From the NCBI GenBank assembly GCA_011523305.1, contig WTHB01000180.1, forward strand, positions 1-37,430: a stretch of DNA of 37,430 nucleotides. Direction: 5' to 3'. The stretch's first letter is position 1, and every line of letters starts with the position of its first letter. Below, one piece after another: positions 1 through 5,773 of the stretch. Source of the stretch: Planctomycetaceae bacterium (GTDB lineage: Bacteria > Planctomycetota > Planctomycetia > Pirellulales > UBA1268). The notes under the pieces were generated by a model, which saw nothing but the letters and a program-made list of their open reading frames with translations, was not told the origin of the DNA and searched no databases. Both the position numbers and the translations under genes were made by a program.

Positions 1-451
1 CCCCCGTCCTTCCTTTACGACACCCGCGCCGGGCCGCAGCGGCGTTTTCCCCGCCATCCCCCCCGACTTGGACCCCCCCCCCCGCCATTCCGCAGGCGAA
101 CCAGTCGCCCACCGAGCCGGTGATCTGTAGGCGGCCCCCAGTCATGCCCTCGCCGGCGTGCCGGCCAACATCGCCGGTCGCGTAGATCGTTCCGCGGCTC
201 AGGCCTGCTCCCAGGAAATGCACCCGGGAAAAGTCGCCGCTGCACTGGACCACGCCGTCCCCGAGGTCGCCCGCGACATCAAAATGGTCGGCAAGCCTGC
301 CCGGTTGACCGTCACAGAGAATGGGGATGTCGCCCGGGGCAGCATGTTGGGACGGAGCGTTGATCGCTTCTGCCAGGCCAGCTAGGGAGACGCCCCCAAA
401 AGAAGCCGAGCCGGCGGAGCTATGGGTGCGGATAGAAAGGTGCAGCGGCAT
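1..451 (-). CDS. fhcC: Formyltransferase/hydrolase complex subunit C, N-terminal part (cut by window edge)
   Basis: The reverse strand reads from an ATG at 451 to the window edge without a stop (about 150 codons). The protein has the glycine-rich GXXGXXXG repeat pattern of the FwdC/FhcC (GXGXG, glutamate-synthase alpha C-terminal-like) beta-helix: GDLGDGVVQCSGD, then GDVGRHAGEGMTGG, then GSVGDWFACGMAGG, then GGDGGENAAAA. In methylotrophs and planctomycetes the Fhc complex (A, B, C, D) releases formate from formyl-tetrahydromethanopterin via a methanofuran-like carrier. The frame holds only if the G run opposite 73-83 is 11 long and the one opposite 58-64 is 7 long. Subunits A and B lie at 17680-20507. 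In the last repeat, usual Gly and Met positions read Ala and Arg, which may be natural or an end-of-contig error. Confidence 0.8.
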   Translation of the reverse strand, partial: MPLHLSIRTHSSAGSASFGGVSLAGLAEAINAPSQHAAPGDIPILCDGQPGRLADHFDVAGDLGDGVVQCSGDFSRVHFLGAGLSRGTIYATGDVGRHAGEGMTGGRLQITGSVGDWFACGMAGGGVQVGGDGGENAAAARRGCRKGRTG

Positions 452-513
452 GAGGGCTGGCCAGACAACGGAAGGAAAACCTCCCTTTATTATGCGCAGC
501 GTGCCAGCGAGAA

Positions 514-543
514 CCCAGCCGGCAGCGGTTGCTGCCGGCTGGG
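514..543 (-). terminator. Strong GC hairpin between hsp20 and fhcC
   Basis: A perfect 13-bp inverted repeat (514-526 with 531-543) closes a GGTT loop. It starts 12 bases past the stop of the last hsp20 gene on the minus strand. No long T tract follows, so intrinsic termination is likely but not certain. It could also stabilise the mRNA 3' end. It separates the heat-shock operon from fhcC. Confidence 0.65.
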
Positions 544-554
544 CACTGGAGGGA

Positions 555-1052
555 TCAACTGGCGGTGATGACCGGCACCTTGCGTGAGGCGCTTGTCGGT
601 GACTTGGTCAGGTTGACCGTCAGGACCCCCTTGTCGTAGTGCGCTGCCACCTTGCTGGGGTCGACGGCTTCTGGCAAGGGGATCGCCCGGCTGAAGCCGC
701 CAGAGTGACTTTCCCGGTGGGTCCAGCCGTTGCCCACCGATTCAGCCTCGGTCTTTTTTTCACCCGAGATCACCAACCGGTCTTCCGAGACACTGACATC
801 GACATCGTTTGGGTCGATGCCCGGAAGATCGGCCCGCACCCGGATCGTTTCATCCGACTCGGCCATGTCGATGGTTGGTAGCCACCGGCCTGGCTCGATG
901 GTCTCGAACCAGCCCGGAGCCACGGATGGCCGATTGAAGAAGCCCTCGAATAAACGATTCATTTCGTTTCGGAAATCGGTCAGCGAGGACGTGGAAAAGG
1001 ACGCAGGCTCCATGCCTAGGGAACGCTTTGTGCGAAAGGGAATCAAACTCAT
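555..1052 (-). CDS. Small heat-shock protein, Hsp20/alpha-crystallin family (third gene of operon)
   Basis: This is an ATP-independent holdase chaperone of 165 residues. The alpha-crystallin domain runs from about residue 55 to the end (WLPTIDMAESDETIRVRADLPGIDPNDVDV...). It contains the conserved A-x-x-x-n-G-V-L-like signature AHYDKGVLTVNLTK, and the short tail includes a VPV, a variant of the I/V-x-I/V oligomerisation motif. The N-terminal segment has the usual FRNEMNRLFEGFF helix. The start at 1052 is chosen because GAGGAG lies about 7 bases upstream; in-frame ATGs at 1076 and 1067 have no better site. It is the last of three tandem hsp20 genes on this strand, 70 bases after the previous one. 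Confidence 0.93.
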   Translation of the reverse strand: MSLIPFRTKRSLGMEPASFSTSSLTDFRNEMNRLFEGFFNRPSVAPGWFETIEPGRWLPTIDMAESDETIRVRADLPGIDPNDVDVSVSEDRLVISGEKKTEAESVGNGWTHRESHSGGFSRAIPLPEAVDPSKVAAHYDKGVLTVNLTKSPTSASRKVPVITAS

Positions 1053-1122
1053 CGGTCTGCTCCTCATGTCGTTCAAAGGGAAAAGGAAACGTCACCTGAA
1101 ACCGGAGGACGTCACGGTCGGC

Positions 1123-1518
1123 TCAGCCGGCCGTGATAGGAATTGTGCGGGGCTGTTCCGCGGCCAGTCGCGGCACCCGAATGGTGAGCACGCCGTTGCG
1201 ATAGGTTGCTGCAGTCTGGCTGGCGTCAAAGTCGGCACCGATCTGGAAGGAACGCTGGTAGCCGCCGATGCCGTACTCTCGCCGCACGGCCGTACCGGGA
1301 AGGGAGCGGGCTGGCACGGCCGCGTCGATCGACAGGACGCCGTCCTCAACCTGCACGTCGATTGCCGAAGCAGATGAGCCGGGAATGTCCGCGATCAAAA
1401 CCAGGATGTCATCGCAGGTGGCGACATCGACATTCGGCCGATAGGTCAGGCGCTGTTCAGCACTGCTGCCAGAGAGCTGGTTCCGCTCTGCGGGACTGGT
1501 TGGTGAAGAAGCAATCAT
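1123..1518 (-). CDS. Small heat-shock protein, Hsp20 family, divergent (second gene of operon)
   Basis: 131 residues with an alpha-crystallin domain: RPNVDVATCDDILVLIADIPG near the start, ATYRNGVLTIRVP as the A-x-x-x-n-G-V-L box, and a TIPIT tail carrying the I-x-I motif that docks neighbouring subunits. The N-terminal arm is very short and lacks the FRxEMDRLF helix of the two neighbours. It resembles the Class-A/Class-B pairing seen in bacteria with several sHsps, where unlike subunits mix; mixing here is inference. The start at 1518 has GAGGAG seven bases upstream; the longer frame to 1572 has no ribosome site. It is co-directional with the flanking hsp20 genes (100 and 70 base gaps). Confidence 0.92.
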   Translation of the reverse strand: MIASSPTSPAERNQLSGSSAEQRLTYRPNVDVATCDDILVLIADIPGSSASAIDVQVEDGVLSIDAAVPARSLPGTAVRREYGIGGYQRSFQIGADFDASQTAATYRNGVLTIRVPRLAAEQPRTIPITAG

Positions 1519-1618
1519 GGGAGGTCTCCTCGTTGTGCAAGTTGTAGAAATGAAAGAGGGGTGCAAAACCAATCAGGGGCGAATACTGCAGCCAGACGTT
1601 GCAGCAGTCCGGCTGTCA

Positions 1619-2098
1619 TCACGTGCTGGTGACCGTGACCTTTCGCGGACGGCAGGCAGCCGCCTTCGGGCAGGTGACAGTGAGCACGCCATCCTGAAGC
1701 CGGGCCTCGACGTCTTCGGGATCGATCAGGGTGGGCAGGCTGAGTCGCCGGACAAACTCGCCGATGCCACGTTCGCGTCGATGCCAGGTTGGGGTGGCTG
1801 TATTCTCCGTTGGCGTGTCCTGTGACAGGACGTCCGGTTCATCTCGGTGACCTTTGAGCGTCACCTCGTCTCCGAGCGTTGTTATTTCCAGAGCGTCCGG
1901 ATCGATGCCGGGCAGTTCGGCTTCAAGCACCACCGTTTCGGCGGTCTCAAAGAGGTTGATCGCCGGGAAGGCTTCCTTGGCTGACTGCCGCGTCCAGCCG
2001 TGAAGTGGCGGGGCTGTGGTCAACGAGTTCCAGAGCCGATCCATCTCATCGCGCAAGTCTTCCAGCGGGTGCGCGTACCCAACACGAAGCAACTGCAT
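1619..2098 (-). CDS. Small heat-shock protein, Hsp20 family (first gene of operon)
   Basis: 159 residues. It starts MQLLRVGYAHPLEDLRDEMDRLWNSL, with the amphipathic N-terminal helix typical of Hsp20. The alpha-crystallin domain follows from about residue 45 (FPAINLFETAETVVLEAELPGIDPDALEI) and holds the box ARLQDGVLTVTCPK near the C-terminus. An insertion rich in D, T and E lies in the beta5-beta7 loop (about residues 90-105). The start at 2098 is preferred: GGGAG lies about 9 bases upstream, and the sigma-54 promoter at 2239-2254 would place the transcript start near 2228, inside the otherwise open upstream frame to 2503. It is the promoter-proximal member of the three-gene operon. Confidence 0.93.
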   Translation of the reverse strand: MQLLRVGYAHPLEDLRDEMDRLWNSLTTAPPLHGWTRQSAKEAFPAINLFETAETVVLEAELPGIDPDALEITTLGDEVTLKGHRDEPDVLSQDTPTENTATPTWHRRERGIGEFVRRLSLPTLIDPEDVEARLQDGVLTVTCPKAAACRPRKVTVTST

Positions 2099-2238
2099 GG
2101 CAGAATCTCCCAAGAACGTGACAAGGCCGAAACCGGTGACCGCCGTCCCTGGAGCAGCGGAATCATTCGCAGACGCCACCGCTCTGGGCAACTGGCACCG
2201 GATCAGGCCGTTTCCCAAAACCGTTGGGAGATTGAAAT

Positions 2239-2254
2239 TGCAAAGAGCGTGCCA
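2239..2254 (-). promoter_or_regulatory. Sigma-54 (RpoN) promoter for the hsp20 operon
   Basis: On the minus strand the sequence reads TGGCACG-CTCT-TTGCA, which matches the -24/-12 consensus TGGCACG-N4-TTGCW at every fixed position, preceded by TT and followed by AT-rich bases. Transcription should begin near 2228, about 130 bases before the first hsp20 start. This means the operon needs an AAA+ enhancer-binding activator rather than a simple heat-shock sigma factor. Confidence 0.85.
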
Positions 2255-2433
2255 AACTCGGTGGCGGCCGGGTGGAGCCTCACCGCCAGCGTGGAAGAGC
2301 GTCTCCGATAGCGGCGAGTGAGTGCTTCGTGGCGTTTGGTTCAGGGCGGTGGACACCCTGCCCCGGTCGTTGTTTTGGCCGCCCCCGGAGGGTGAGAGTT
2401 GCGAGACCCTGCCGGTGATGCCAATTCTGGTGG

Positions 2434-2456
2434 CTGTCAGGCTGGCAGATTGACAG
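2434..2456. promoter_or_regulatory. Inverted repeat, possible sigma-54 activator site
   Basis: CTGTCA (2434-2439) and TGACAG (2451-2456) form a perfect 6-base inverted repeat with an 11-base spacer. The site is about 180-200 bases upstream of the sigma-54 promoter, a usual distance for an enhancer-binding protein. Assignment is inference from placement only. Confidence 0.35.
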
Positions 2457-2485
2457 AAAGACCGGTCAAAACGGCGGCCCCTAGG

Positions 2486-2513
2486 TTGTGGGGCGAATGC
2501 CAACCCCTATACT
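2486..2513 (+). promoter_or_regulatory. Sigma-70-type promoter for the dehydratase-ACP-KAS cluster
   Basis: TTGTGG (2486-2491), a 16-base spacer, then TATACT (2508-2513), facing the first dehydratase gene. The -10 is one base from consensus; the -35 matches in its TTG core. Predicted start of transcription is near 2520. Confidence 0.55.
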
Positions 2514-2520
2514 CGCGACG

Positions 2521-2546
2521 TCGGTCGGACAGGTTCGTTCGACCGA
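2521..2546 (+). promoter_or_regulatory. Inverted repeat at the start of the dehydratase transcript, possible operator
   Basis: TCGGTCG (2521-2527) and CGACCGA (2540-2546) form a perfect 7-base inverted repeat with a 12-base spacer, placed at about +1 to +27 of the predicted transcript. It could be a repressor operator or a 5' stem-loop. The regulator is unknown. Confidence 0.4.
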
Positions 2547-2589
2547 GTATTGCGAAGGGTTTTCTGATACACGCGGACGCGGGTCTACC

Positions 2590-3144
2590 ATGCGATTTAC
2601 CCTGCTTGATCGAATCACCGACGTCGACCCCGGCAAGAGCATCACGGCGGTCAAGGCGGTCTCTCTGGCTGAGGAATATCTCGGGGATCACTTTCCACGG
2701 TTTCCGGTGCTGCCTGGCGTGTTCATGCTGGAGGCGATGACGCAGGCTGCAGCCTGGACGATTCGTCTGGGCGAGGACTTTGCCCACAGCATCGTGGTGC
2801 TTCGCACTGCTCGCAATGTGAAGTACGGCGATTTTGTCGAACCGGGCCGAGTGCTGACCGTGCATGCCGAAGTGCTGTCGCAGGACGCCACCCGGACAAA
2901 GGTCAAGGCCAGTGGCATGGTGGGTGACCGAACCAGCCTGACGGCACGGTTGGAACTGGAGCGGTACAACCTCGCGGACCGGCGACCGCACGGGGACGCC
3001 ATTGATGTTCGGGTTCGGGCGGAGATGCGGCGACTTTGGTCAGTACTCAATCCGCCCGAGCGTGCCGGAGCCCAGGATCGGCACATGGTCTATGGCGTTG
3101 CGGCAACCGCTGCGGTGCCAGCGACCCAGTCGACCAGCGTCTGA
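2590..3144 (+). CDS. fabZ: 3-hydroxyacyl-ACP dehydratase, FabZ-like hotdog protein (first copy)
   Basis: 184 residues of the FabZ/hotdog family, which dehydrates 3-hydroxyacyl-ACP to trans-2-enoyl-ACP. The active-site helix reads DHFPRFPVLPGVFMLEAMTQ, giving catalytic His34 and Glu48 with the 14-residue spacing of FabZ. The start MRFTLLDRI at 2590 fits the family; the open frame upstream to 2488 crosses the predicted promoter and is not used. The C-terminal ~40 residues, after the hotdog core, are longer than classical FabZ (about 145-150 aa) and low in recognisable features. It heads a co-directional cluster with an ACP, a second FabZ-like protein and a KAS II enzyme. Confidence 0.88.
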   Translation: MRFTLLDRITDVDPGKSITAVKAVSLAEEYLGDHFPRFPVLPGVFMLEAMTQAAAWTIRLGEDFAHSIVVLRTARNVKYGDFVEPGRVLTVHAEVLSQDATRTKVKASGMVGDRTSLTARLELERYNLADRRPHGDAIDVRVRAEMRRLWSVLNPPERAGAQDRHMVYGVAATAAVPATQSTSV

Positions 3145-3370
3145 AGCGGCCGCTGGCTCCGTCGCACAGCAGGCTGACGCCTGGCCAGCGGCAGGCCGGT
3201 TGGCACAAAAGTGGCGGTTTTCGTGCTTCTCTGGGCCAGGTCTCGGGGCCGAACATGACGGTTGTACCGCTGTCGCGGGCCAGCAATTCCACCGTTCGGC
3301 TTTCCAAGGTGAAACGCCGAGATTACAACCTACGTTGTTTCCGCAGGTTCCCACTCCCCCTGAAGGTGAG

Positions 3371-3763
3371 ATGTCGATGCCGTCTCGAGATGAAATCTTT
3401 GAAAAAGTCCAAGCCGCCCTCGTTGACGCCCTTGGTGTGGATGATGACGAGGTGACCCCTGAGGCCACCATGGTCGGTGACCTTGGTGCGGAGTCGATTG
3501 ACTTCCTTGACATCGTGTTCCGGCTTGAGAAAGCCTTCGGGATCAAGATCCCACGGGGTGAACTCTTCCCCGAAGATGTGCTGTCGAGTACGGACTACGT
3601 CGTCAATGGCAAGCTCAACGAAGCTGGCCTGACCGCGTTGAAGGAGCGAATGCCGTTCGTCGATCTGACCAAGTTCGAAGAGAACCCGAGCGTGCAGAAT
3701 TTCCCCAACACGCTGACGGTCGAAGACATGGTTCGGTACGTGCAGAGCAAACTCGCGGGCTGA
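3371..3763 (+). CDS. Acyl carrier protein with long C-terminal insert
   Basis: 130 residues, against about 78 for the standard ACP. Helix I and the prosthetic-group site are clear: VGDLGAESIDFLDIVFRLEKAFGIKIP, with Ser42 the phosphopantetheine attachment site (the usual D-S-L is E-S-I). After this the family's short helix III region is replaced by about 50 extra residues (PEDVLSSTDYVVNGKLNEAG... NFPNTLTVEDMVRYV) before the final helix. The start is 3371, with AAGGTG just upstream; an ATG two codons later at 3377 is also possible. It probably carries the acyl chain between the flanking dehydratases and the ketoacyl synthase. Positions 3145-3370 before it hold no gene I can support. Confidence 0.88.
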   Translation: MSMPSRDEIFEKVQAALVDALGVDDDEVTPEATMVGDLGAESIDFLDIVFRLEKAFGIKIPRGELFPEDVLSSTDYVVNGKLNEAGLTALKERMPFVDLTKFEENPSVQNFPNTLTVEDMVRYVQSKLAG

Positions 3764-3880
3764 ACCAGCGTTGGCAGATGCCGGGGCGAGTGAGGCACCC
3801 CGGGATGAGGGTGTCGCCTGTTGCTGCGAGTGCGAGCAGGTGACGCGTAACGTTGTTGGTGAAGGGAGTGCGGCAACCGT

Positions 3881-4396
3881 ATGCGTTGGTTCTGGGTCGA
3901 TCGGTTCACTGAGTTTGTTCGCGGGAAGCAGGCGACTGCGGTCAAGAACGTTTCCCTCGCAGAAGAACATCTGCACGACCACTTTCCCGGCGCTGCCCTC
4001 ATGCCGAACTCGTTGATTGTTGAGGGCATGGCGCAGACGGCAGGGTTGCTGGTTGCCGATGCCCTCGAATTTGGTCGGCGGGTCGTGTTGGCTAAAGTGG
4101 CCAAGGCGGAATTTCAATATGATGCCCTGCCGGGTGACACGCTCTTGTTCCGTGCCACCATTCTCGACTTAAAACCGACCGGTTCCCTGGCGAGCGTCAG
4201 CAGTGCAGTGGTCGATACGGCAGGAAATGAGCAGCCCCAGGGTGAGGCGGAACTGTTCTTCGCCCATCTTGAGCCGGGCGAAGGGGTGCCGAAATTGTTT
4301 GAGCCCGATGAACTGCTGAAGTGGCTCGATCACATGCACATCTACGACATTGGTCGGGATGAGGCCGGGAATCCGCTCTCCCGCCCCGACTGGTAG
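3881..4396 (+). CDS. fabZ: 3-hydroxyacyl-ACP dehydratase, FabZ/FabA-like hotdog protein (second copy)
   Basis: 171 residues. The active-site segment DHFPGAALMPNSLIVEGMAQTAGLL again places His34 and Glu48 fourteen residues apart, so both dehydratases of the cluster keep the catalytic pair. The motif differs from the first copy in having MPN rather than LPG at the turn, and the C-terminal region (FEPDELLKWLDHMHIYDIG) is unrelated to it, so the two are not a recent duplication. The only in-frame start is the ATG at 3881, with GGGAG about 12 bases upstream, a loose spacing. The neighbours are the ACP (118 bases upstream) and fabF (78 bases downstream). The two could form a heteromeric enzyme or act on different chain types. 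Confidence 0.88.
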   Translation: MRWFWVDRFTEFVRGKQATAVKNVSLAEEHLHDHFPGAALMPNSLIVEGMAQTAGLLVADALEFGRRVVLAKVAKAEFQYDALPGDTLLFRATILDLKPTGSLASVSSAVVDTAGNEQPQGEAELFFAHLEPGEGVPKLFEPDELLKWLDHMHIYDIGRDEAGNPLSRPDW

Positions 4397-4474
4397 GCTG
4401 ATCGCCGCCAGAACGGTATCGTGGTGGACGGCCGTCAGTGACGCGGCCGGAACAGCGAAGGTGGAGGAACCGCA

Positions 4475-5773
4475 ATGGTGGCTGGTCGTCGGCGGGTTGT
4501 GATCACGGGCATGGGGTGTGTAACACCACTCGGAGTCACCGTGGAGGAACTCTGGGGGAACCTCAAGGAAGGTCGCTCGGGCGTAGGCCCCACCACCGTG
4601 TTTGATGCCTCTCGGTTTCCCACCAAAATTGCCGCCGAGGTGAAGAACTGGTCGGTTGCCGATGAGGGACAGTCAGAAGACCGGTGGCAGAACTGCGGCC
4701 GGCATACAAAATTTGCCGCCGGAGCGGCGCTCCAGGCGATGCGACACGCCGGGCTGGAAGGGGGCCTGACTTCCGCGCCTGATCGGCTGGGAATCTATCT
4801 CGGAAGTGGCGAGGGGCAGCAAGATTTCGATTCCTTCACCAAGATGATGATGGCTTCCATCGAAGGGGACTCCCTCGATGTGGCGAAGTTCACCAGGTTG
4901 GGGCTCGAAACCCTCAAGCCGCTCACGGAAGTGGAGCAGGAACCGAACATGCCGGCTGGCCATCTGGCCGCCCTGTTTGATGCCCAGGGGCCTAATCTCA
5001 ACTGTCTGACGGCGTGTGCAGCTTCAAGCCAGGCCATTGGAGAGGCAACCGAATTGGTCCGGCGGGGTGATGCTGATGTGATGCTCTCCGGCGGAACCCA
5101 CAGCATGATCCATCCTTTCGGTGTCACTGGCTTCAATCTGTTGACGGCGTTGTCGACCCGAAACGATGAACCGGCCCGGGCCAGTCGTCCGTTTGACTAC
5201 GAACGCGACGGTTTTGTGCTGGGTGAAGGCGCCGCCATGGTGGTGCTGGAGGAACTTGAACATGCCCGGCGGCGAGGTGCCACGATCTTTGGCGAGGTGC
5301 TTGGCTATGGCTCAACTGCTGACGCCTATCGGATTACCGACACCCATCCCGAGGGCCGGGGGGCGTCCAGTTGTATCCGCATGGCTCTGGCCGATGCGGG
5401 CCTTGGTCTGGAGGCCATCGACTACGTCAACGCCCACGGAACGAGTACGAGTGTCAACGACCGGGTTGAGACGTTGGCAATCAAGACGGTCTTTGGGGAA
5501 CGTGCCCCGCAGATTCCCGTCTCCAGCACGAAGAGCATGATGGGGCACCTGATCGCAGCGGCTGGAGCGACCGAGGCGATCGTGTCGCTGCTGGCGATTC
5601 GGGATGATGTCCTTCCGCCCACGATCAACTACGAAAACCCTGATCCGGAATGTGACCTCGACTACATTCCCAATGCTGCCCGAAAGGCATCCTGCCGCCG
5701 GGTGCTGTCCAACAGTTTTGGGTTCGGCGGCCAGAACATTTCGCTCATTCTGGGGCAGTTTGACGGGGCCTGA
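4475..5773 (+). CDS. fabF: Beta-ketoacyl-ACP synthase II (KAS II type)
   Basis: 432 residues of the thiolase fold, close to FabF length (about 413). It catalyses decarboxylative condensation of malonyl-ACP with an acyl chain. The full Cys-His-His triad is visible: Cys181 in LTACAASSQ, His321 in VNAHGTST and His358 in MMGHLIAAAGA, with the NSFGFGGQN motif near the C-terminus. The start MVAGRRRVVITGMG has GGTGGAGG at good distance. It is the last gene of the dehydratase-ACP-dehydratase cluster and is followed by a terminator-like hairpin at 5825. No ketoreductase or enoyl reductase is in the cluster, so those steps must come from housekeeping enzymes. Confidence 0.93.
   Translation: MVAGRRRVVITGMGCVTPLGVTVEELWGNLKEGRSGVGPTTVFDASRFPTKIAAEVKNWSVADEGQSEDRWQNCGRHTKFAAGAALQAMRHAGLEGGLTSAPDRLGIYLGSGEGQQDFDSFTKMMMASIEGDSLDVAKFTRLGLETLKPLTEVEQEPNMPAGHLAALFDAQGPNLNCLTACAASSQAIGEATELVRRGDADVMLSGGTHSMIHPFGVTGFNLLTALSTRNDEPARASRPFDYERDGFVLGEGAAMVVLEELEHARRRGATIFGEVLGYGSTADAYRITDTHPEGRGASSCIRMALADAGLGLEAIDYVNAHGTSTSVNDRVETLAIKTVFGERAPQIPVSSTKSMMGHLIAAAGATEAIVSLLAIRDDVLPPTINYENPDPECDLDYIPNAARKASCRRVLSNSFGFGGQNISLILGQFDGA

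Follow-up and report, generated by a model that had tools for sequence, protein, structure and literature searches.

What would switch on a three-gene hsp20 operon of a planctomycete whose upstream region carries what looks like a perfect sigma-54 promoter, and is this promoter a peculiarity of one operon? The question is raised by the window analysed here, a 37,430-nt contig from a Planctomycetaceae bacterium of the order Pirellulales, where the minus strand from 2254 to 2239 reads TGGCACGCTCTTTGCA and agrees with the consensus TGGCACG-N4-TTGCW at 12 of 12 positions. Both this complete match and its placement before three tandem hsp20 genes had been claimed by the first-pass annotation, and both are borne out, with three same-strand genes carrying HSP20 Pfam domains lying downstream. 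The features of the region are the following.

1619..2098, minus strand: hsp20 gene 1, 159 aa (PF00011, E=4e-17)
1123..1518, minus strand: hsp20 gene 2, 131 aa from ATG, 149 aa from a TTG start (PF00011, E=4e-14)
555..1052, minus strand: hsp20 gene 3, 165 aa from ATG (PF00011, E=1e-21)
2099..2228, minus strand: predicted hsp20 5′ untranslated region; contains a block also conserved in two genomes of the same genus (G004 and G007)
2239..2254, minus strand: predicted -24/-12 sigma-54 promoter element, TGGCACG-CTCT-TTGCA (consensus match and conservation)
2434..2448, no strand assigned: enhancer-like inverted repeat (putative UAS), minus strand CTGCCAGCCTGACAG, one mismatch to CTGCCA-N3-TGGCAG
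2442..2456, no strand assigned: second, weaker overlapping repeat copy, minus strand CTGTCAATCTGCCAG, two mismatches
2590..3144, plus strand: divergent FabA/FabZ-like gene (PF07977, E=2e-16)

The hsp20 genes are separated by gaps of 100 and 70 nt, and 141 nt lie between the 3′ edge of the element (2239) and the ATG of gene 1 (2098). With C2240 taken as position -12, transcription would start near 2228, in agreement with the first-pass annotation, and leave a 5′ untranslated region of about 130 nt. The consensus occurs once in the window against 0.03 expected by chance; the whole 3.49-Mb genome has three exact matches, and the reversed pattern has none. In the leader, a block running from TGCGAATGATT to CCAGGGACGGC (window 2113-2170) is conserved in three members of the genus. 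A search of window positions 1-4200 against Rfam families, thermometers such as ROSE and fourU included, gave no match at E<=1, although an RNA thermometer outside the described families could still reside in this 5′ untranslated region. On the divergent side, the genes from 2590 to 5773 (FabZ-like, acyl carrier, second FabZ-like, ketoacyl synthase) form a fatty-acid-type cluster.

Conservation of the element was scored in the 350 nt upstream of dnaK, groES and hsp20 in as many as 58 related genomes of the order. A site was counted when the invariant GG and GC were both intact and 10 or more of the 12 consensus positions agreed. Such a site precedes dnaK at 50 of 53 loci, groES at 52 of 54 and hsp20 at 39 of 47, counts in which related genomes are not independent and in which the hsp20 set includes, from distant families, single and possibly non-orthologous genes. 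Antisense controls gave 0 in every set and dinucleotide shuffles averaged about 1 per set; 10 of 193 comparison genes (5%) were preceded by such a site; rpoN itself accounts for several of the ten, and none of them had the repeat described below. A clear site is missing at 8 of the 47 hsp20 loci and at a few dnaK and groES loci. One hsp20 locus (L120, G005:C145) was excluded as lying on an apparent contaminant contig; this contig, which also bears IMP dehydrogenase-like and ClpS-like genes, looks foreign to its MAG. The comparison across Pirellulales suggested with the first-pass annotation favours its promoter, and the refuting condition named there, loss of the -24/-12 element from close relatives that keep the operon, did not arise: both same-genus genomes that have the operon (G004 and G007) retain the element. 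Taken together, we consider it very likely from these sequence comparisons that 2254-2239 is a sigma-54 promoter, at which sigma-54 would bind.

The operon is not alone in its own genome. The remaining two exact sites stand before dnaK, 178 nt from its start, and before a PII-type gene. A degenerate search with TGGCNCR-N4-TTGCW gave nine sites genome-wide; most of the six extra ones lie inside genes, but one of them, TGGCGCGCCACTTGCT, stands 152 nt upstream of groES-groEL and matches at 11 of 12 positions. A further element matching at 11 of 12 (CGGCACGGCGGTTGCA) was found 106 nt upstream of a groEL2-groES2-groEL3-dnaJ operon, which brings the number of chaperone operons with the element to four. 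Among the groEL2 loci that were fetched, 14 show an upstream element agreeing at 10 or more of the 12 positions, and at least one locus (L387) lacks it; these counts are descriptive and do not give a rate, since the set was partly picked for nearby repeats.

The same promoters share a second signal. At 114 of 141 element-bearing promoters, the 300 nt upstream contain an inverted repeat that departs from CTGCCA-N3-TGGCAG at no more than one position; a simple count with equal base frequencies puts the estimated chance of this under 0.1% for each region. The repeat takes the forms CTGCCAAACTGGCAG at groES, CTGCCA-N3-TGACAG at hsp20, CGGCCAAAATGGCAG at dnaK and CTGCCAAAACGGCAC at groEL2, the copy at the groEL2 operon being degenerate. 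Mostly it is found 80-200 nt upstream of the promoter, the position of a sigma-54 enhancer, and we infer from this placement a putative activator site. In the window the repeat at 2434-2448 is 194 nt upstream of the -24 element, farther than in most loci, and is identical in G004 and G007, in which the second copy at 2442-2456 is not conserved. When the region is aligned with these two genomes, two islands of conservation, CTGCCAGCCTGACAGCC (the repeat) and TTTGGCACG..CTTTGC (the promoter), stand out from a mostly poor alignment, and the remaining conserved blocks probably belong to the leader and to the divergent FabZ-like gene, with which the hsp20 operon has the repeat-bearing intergenic region in common. 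The case for the repeat rests on position and not on number, as its raw genome-wide counts show no clear excess over controls in the window's own family. Helical phasing was also tried as an argument and set aside: the 114 distances give a peak at 10.5 bp (R=0.39), but p=0.08 among order-level genomes. Promoter and repeat also occur together at dnaK in the named Pirellulales Bythopirellula polymerisocia and Botrimarina, and the dnaK pair is present in Phycisphaerae MAGs, where the promoters are weaker.

We therefore read the hsp20 operon as one operon among a wider chaperone regulon, and not as the oddity that it had been taken for. The envelope, redox or metabolic signal first proposed for it finds no support here: the same promoter and repeat stand before dnaK, groES-groEL and groEL2-groES2-groEL3-dnaJ, which points to general protein-folding or heat stress; heat or misfolding is the probable signal. 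Our model, in which we place high confidence, is that 2254-2239 is the working hsp20 promoter within a conserved Pirellulales proteostasis regulon that answers to folding stress through one AAA+ activator, and that the hsp20 operon is likely to share this activator with the other three operons. Sigma-54 RNA polymerase would wait at the -24/-12 element; the activator would bind CTGCCA-N3-TGGCAG some 80-200 nt upstream, loop to the polymerase and open the promoters jointly in response to protein-folding stress. If true, a tightly off, ATP-driven class of promoter governs core chaperones, DnaK and GroEL among them, which elsewhere are usually under promoters of the sigma-70 family.

Such a regulon with one enhancer would also make sense of planctomycete heat-shock control as seen on arrays. 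In Rhodopirellula baltica, a shift from 28 to 37 °C induced Hsp20, dnaK, GroEL, DnaJ, GrpE, Cpn10 and Cpn60 and left rpoH, rpoE and rpoN unchanged, from which the authors inferred a differing cascade (PMC2754498). A sigma-54 regulon would explain this result because control would lie in the activity of the activator, in which case unchanged rpoN is as expected.

Is the machinery for such control present? RpoN was found in 54 of 59 genomes overall and in 8 of 9 other genomes of the same genus. No RpoN turned up in the assembly that contains the window, despite six clear sigma-54 activators and intact promoters there. This assembly is 95% complete in 195 contigs and is the exception among the well-covered genomes, 43 of 44 of which have RpoN, so that the gene was probably lost to an assembly gap, a true loss being conceivable. 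The order-wide element, the enhancer-like repeat, RpoN in the relatives and the six activators together lend strong support, at the level of sequence, to the first-pass proposal that a sigma-54 promoter ties the chaperones to an AAA+ activator.

A candidate for this activator is one of the six, an NtrC-type regulator that is a single-copy orthologue in 56 of 59 genomes and in all 44 of 44 well-covered ones, located in a pnp-histidine kinase-regulator-mutL neighbourhood. The regulator has REC, sigma-54 AAA+ and HTH_8 (Fis-type HTH) domains; in its soluble partner kinase, HisKA and HATPase domains were recognised but no sensor domain. The contact loop reads GAFTDA instead of GAFTGA in 30 of 30 copies read. 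NorR with the same change (G266D) is active, in fact unregulated (PMC2941729), and GAFTDA is listed as compatible with activation in Desulfovibrio (PMC4641369). An apparent orthologue (53% identity, its highest among the six activators) lies directly upstream of dnaK in one MAG of the Planctomycetota (L290), where dnaK is itself preceded by a weaker promoter and by a sequence close to the repeat. These observations weakly suggest the kinase and regulator as a candidate pair for activating the chaperones. We offer only tentatively, as a possibility with the balance against it, the wider proposal that heat shock in Pirellulales, and perhaps in further Planctomycetota, is under one master switch, a soluble two-component system made up of a cytoplasmic histidine kinase and a GAFTDA NtrC-type regulator, which would act through CTGCCA-N3-TGGCAG and sigma-54 in the place of HrcA and RpoH-type control. 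A second NtrC-type regulator, from another genome (G058; L312, L380), is not favoured as a candidate: it has a different HTH, and none of the six activators is closely related to it.

Heat induction could instead come from another promoter, ECF-dependent or read by the primary sigma factor, leaving sigma-54 a basal or stationary-phase role, as with tandem promoters. Chlamydia offers a precedent, its hrcA-grpE operon having tandem sigma-66 and sigma-54 promoters (PMC8762339), and ECF factors of R. baltica respond to stress (PMC2754498). In the present genomes, dnaK loci (L059 among them) have a strongly conserved CAACTGTA-N16-CGTAAATA some 60-100 nt before the -24 element, which looks ECF-like and is possibly a second promoter of ECF type or the site of some other factor. 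However, this block was noticed at dnaK only, while the -24/-12 element and the repeat are common to four operons, and a consensus scan of the hsp20 upstream region found no sigma-70-like promoter. We regard this explanation as unlikely.

It is also conceivable that the sigma-54 promoter is real and that its activator senses nitrogen, carbon or envelope state, the chaperones being co-regulated by growth state and not by heat. One of the three perfect sites indeed belongs to the glnB-type PII gene (L003, G000:C169:42243), where it resembles classical nitrogen control. In G058, a repeat and sigma-54 element precede a DUF2383-like gene (L312, G058:C1:1979442) beside a Dps-like gene and the second NtrC-type regulator mentioned above; the locus is a possible extra member of the regulon. 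On the other hand, no copy of the chaperone repeat is found at the PII locus, which is thus probably served by another activator, and the targets that share the repeat are chaperones, heat-induced in R. baltica. A growth-state signal seems to us distinctly unlikely.

The inverted repeat might, in turn, be the operator of a repressor, given that chaperone operons are often governed by repressors that bind inverted repeats, HrcA with CIRCE being the example. At groES, moreover, the -24 region is itself palindromic: its half site is mostly TGGCGCGCCA or CGGCGCGCCA in place of TGGCACG (L089-L118, L183-L206) and may double as an operator. Nevertheless, a site mostly 80-200 nt upstream is poorly placed for blocking polymerase and usual for a sigma-54 enhancer, and sigma-54 promoters require an activator, which makes a repressor at the repeat very improbable. 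HrcA/CIRCE control in particular was rejected: hrcA was detected in 0 of 59 genomes by a search that was positive in 7 of 14 control genomes, and the dnaK loci L219-L298 gave no near-exact match to CIRCE (TTAGCACTC-N9-GAGTGCTAA). Finally, a chance match, for which nothing speaks beyond the shortness of the motif, can practically be dismissed, with 0.03 occurrences expected in the window and conservation across the order against 0 antisense.

Part of this picture has been predicted before. A matrix survey published in PLoS One in 2025 reports sigma-54 promoters enriched at the GroEL, IbpA/Hsp20, GroES, GrpE, DnaJ and DnaK groups, with a Planctomycetota signal concentrated in Planctomycetia and fewer in Phycisphaerae; the chaperone cluster is predicted there for Planctomycetia and Bacteroidota (PMC12316311). 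The sigma-54 enrichment at Planctomycetia chaperone genes was thus already predicted by this in-silico study. What the portion available describes is enrichment at the level of groups, and in it an upstream site common to the promoters, the architecture of the operons, a lack of HrcA and an activator are not described. As far as the open literature shows, the shared repeat, the four-operon architecture, the lack of HrcA in these genomes and the candidate activator are new.

Among known systems, the HrcA/CIRCE regulon also relies on an inverted repeat to coordinate groE and dnaK operons. It is however a repressor system, whereas the Pirellulales repeat does not resemble CIRCE and sits upstream of the promoter in genomes without detected hrcA, and chaperones of this order (Hsp20, DnaK, GroES/GroEL) appear to use sigma-54 and a shared site in place of HrcA. 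The sigma-54 promoter of Chlamydia hrcA-grpE also stands at a chaperone operon (PMC8762339), but this operon is still governed by HrcA and CIRCE. In E. coli, the small heat-shock gene ibpB also has a sigma-54 promoter (Kuczynska-Wisnik 2001, cited in PMC8155344); there, sigma-32 is the main factor and sigma-54 an addition, whereas in Pirellulales sigma-54 elements are found at all main chaperone operons and HrcA is absent. The two cases, from E. coli and from Chlamydia, are in this respect single-operon precedents.
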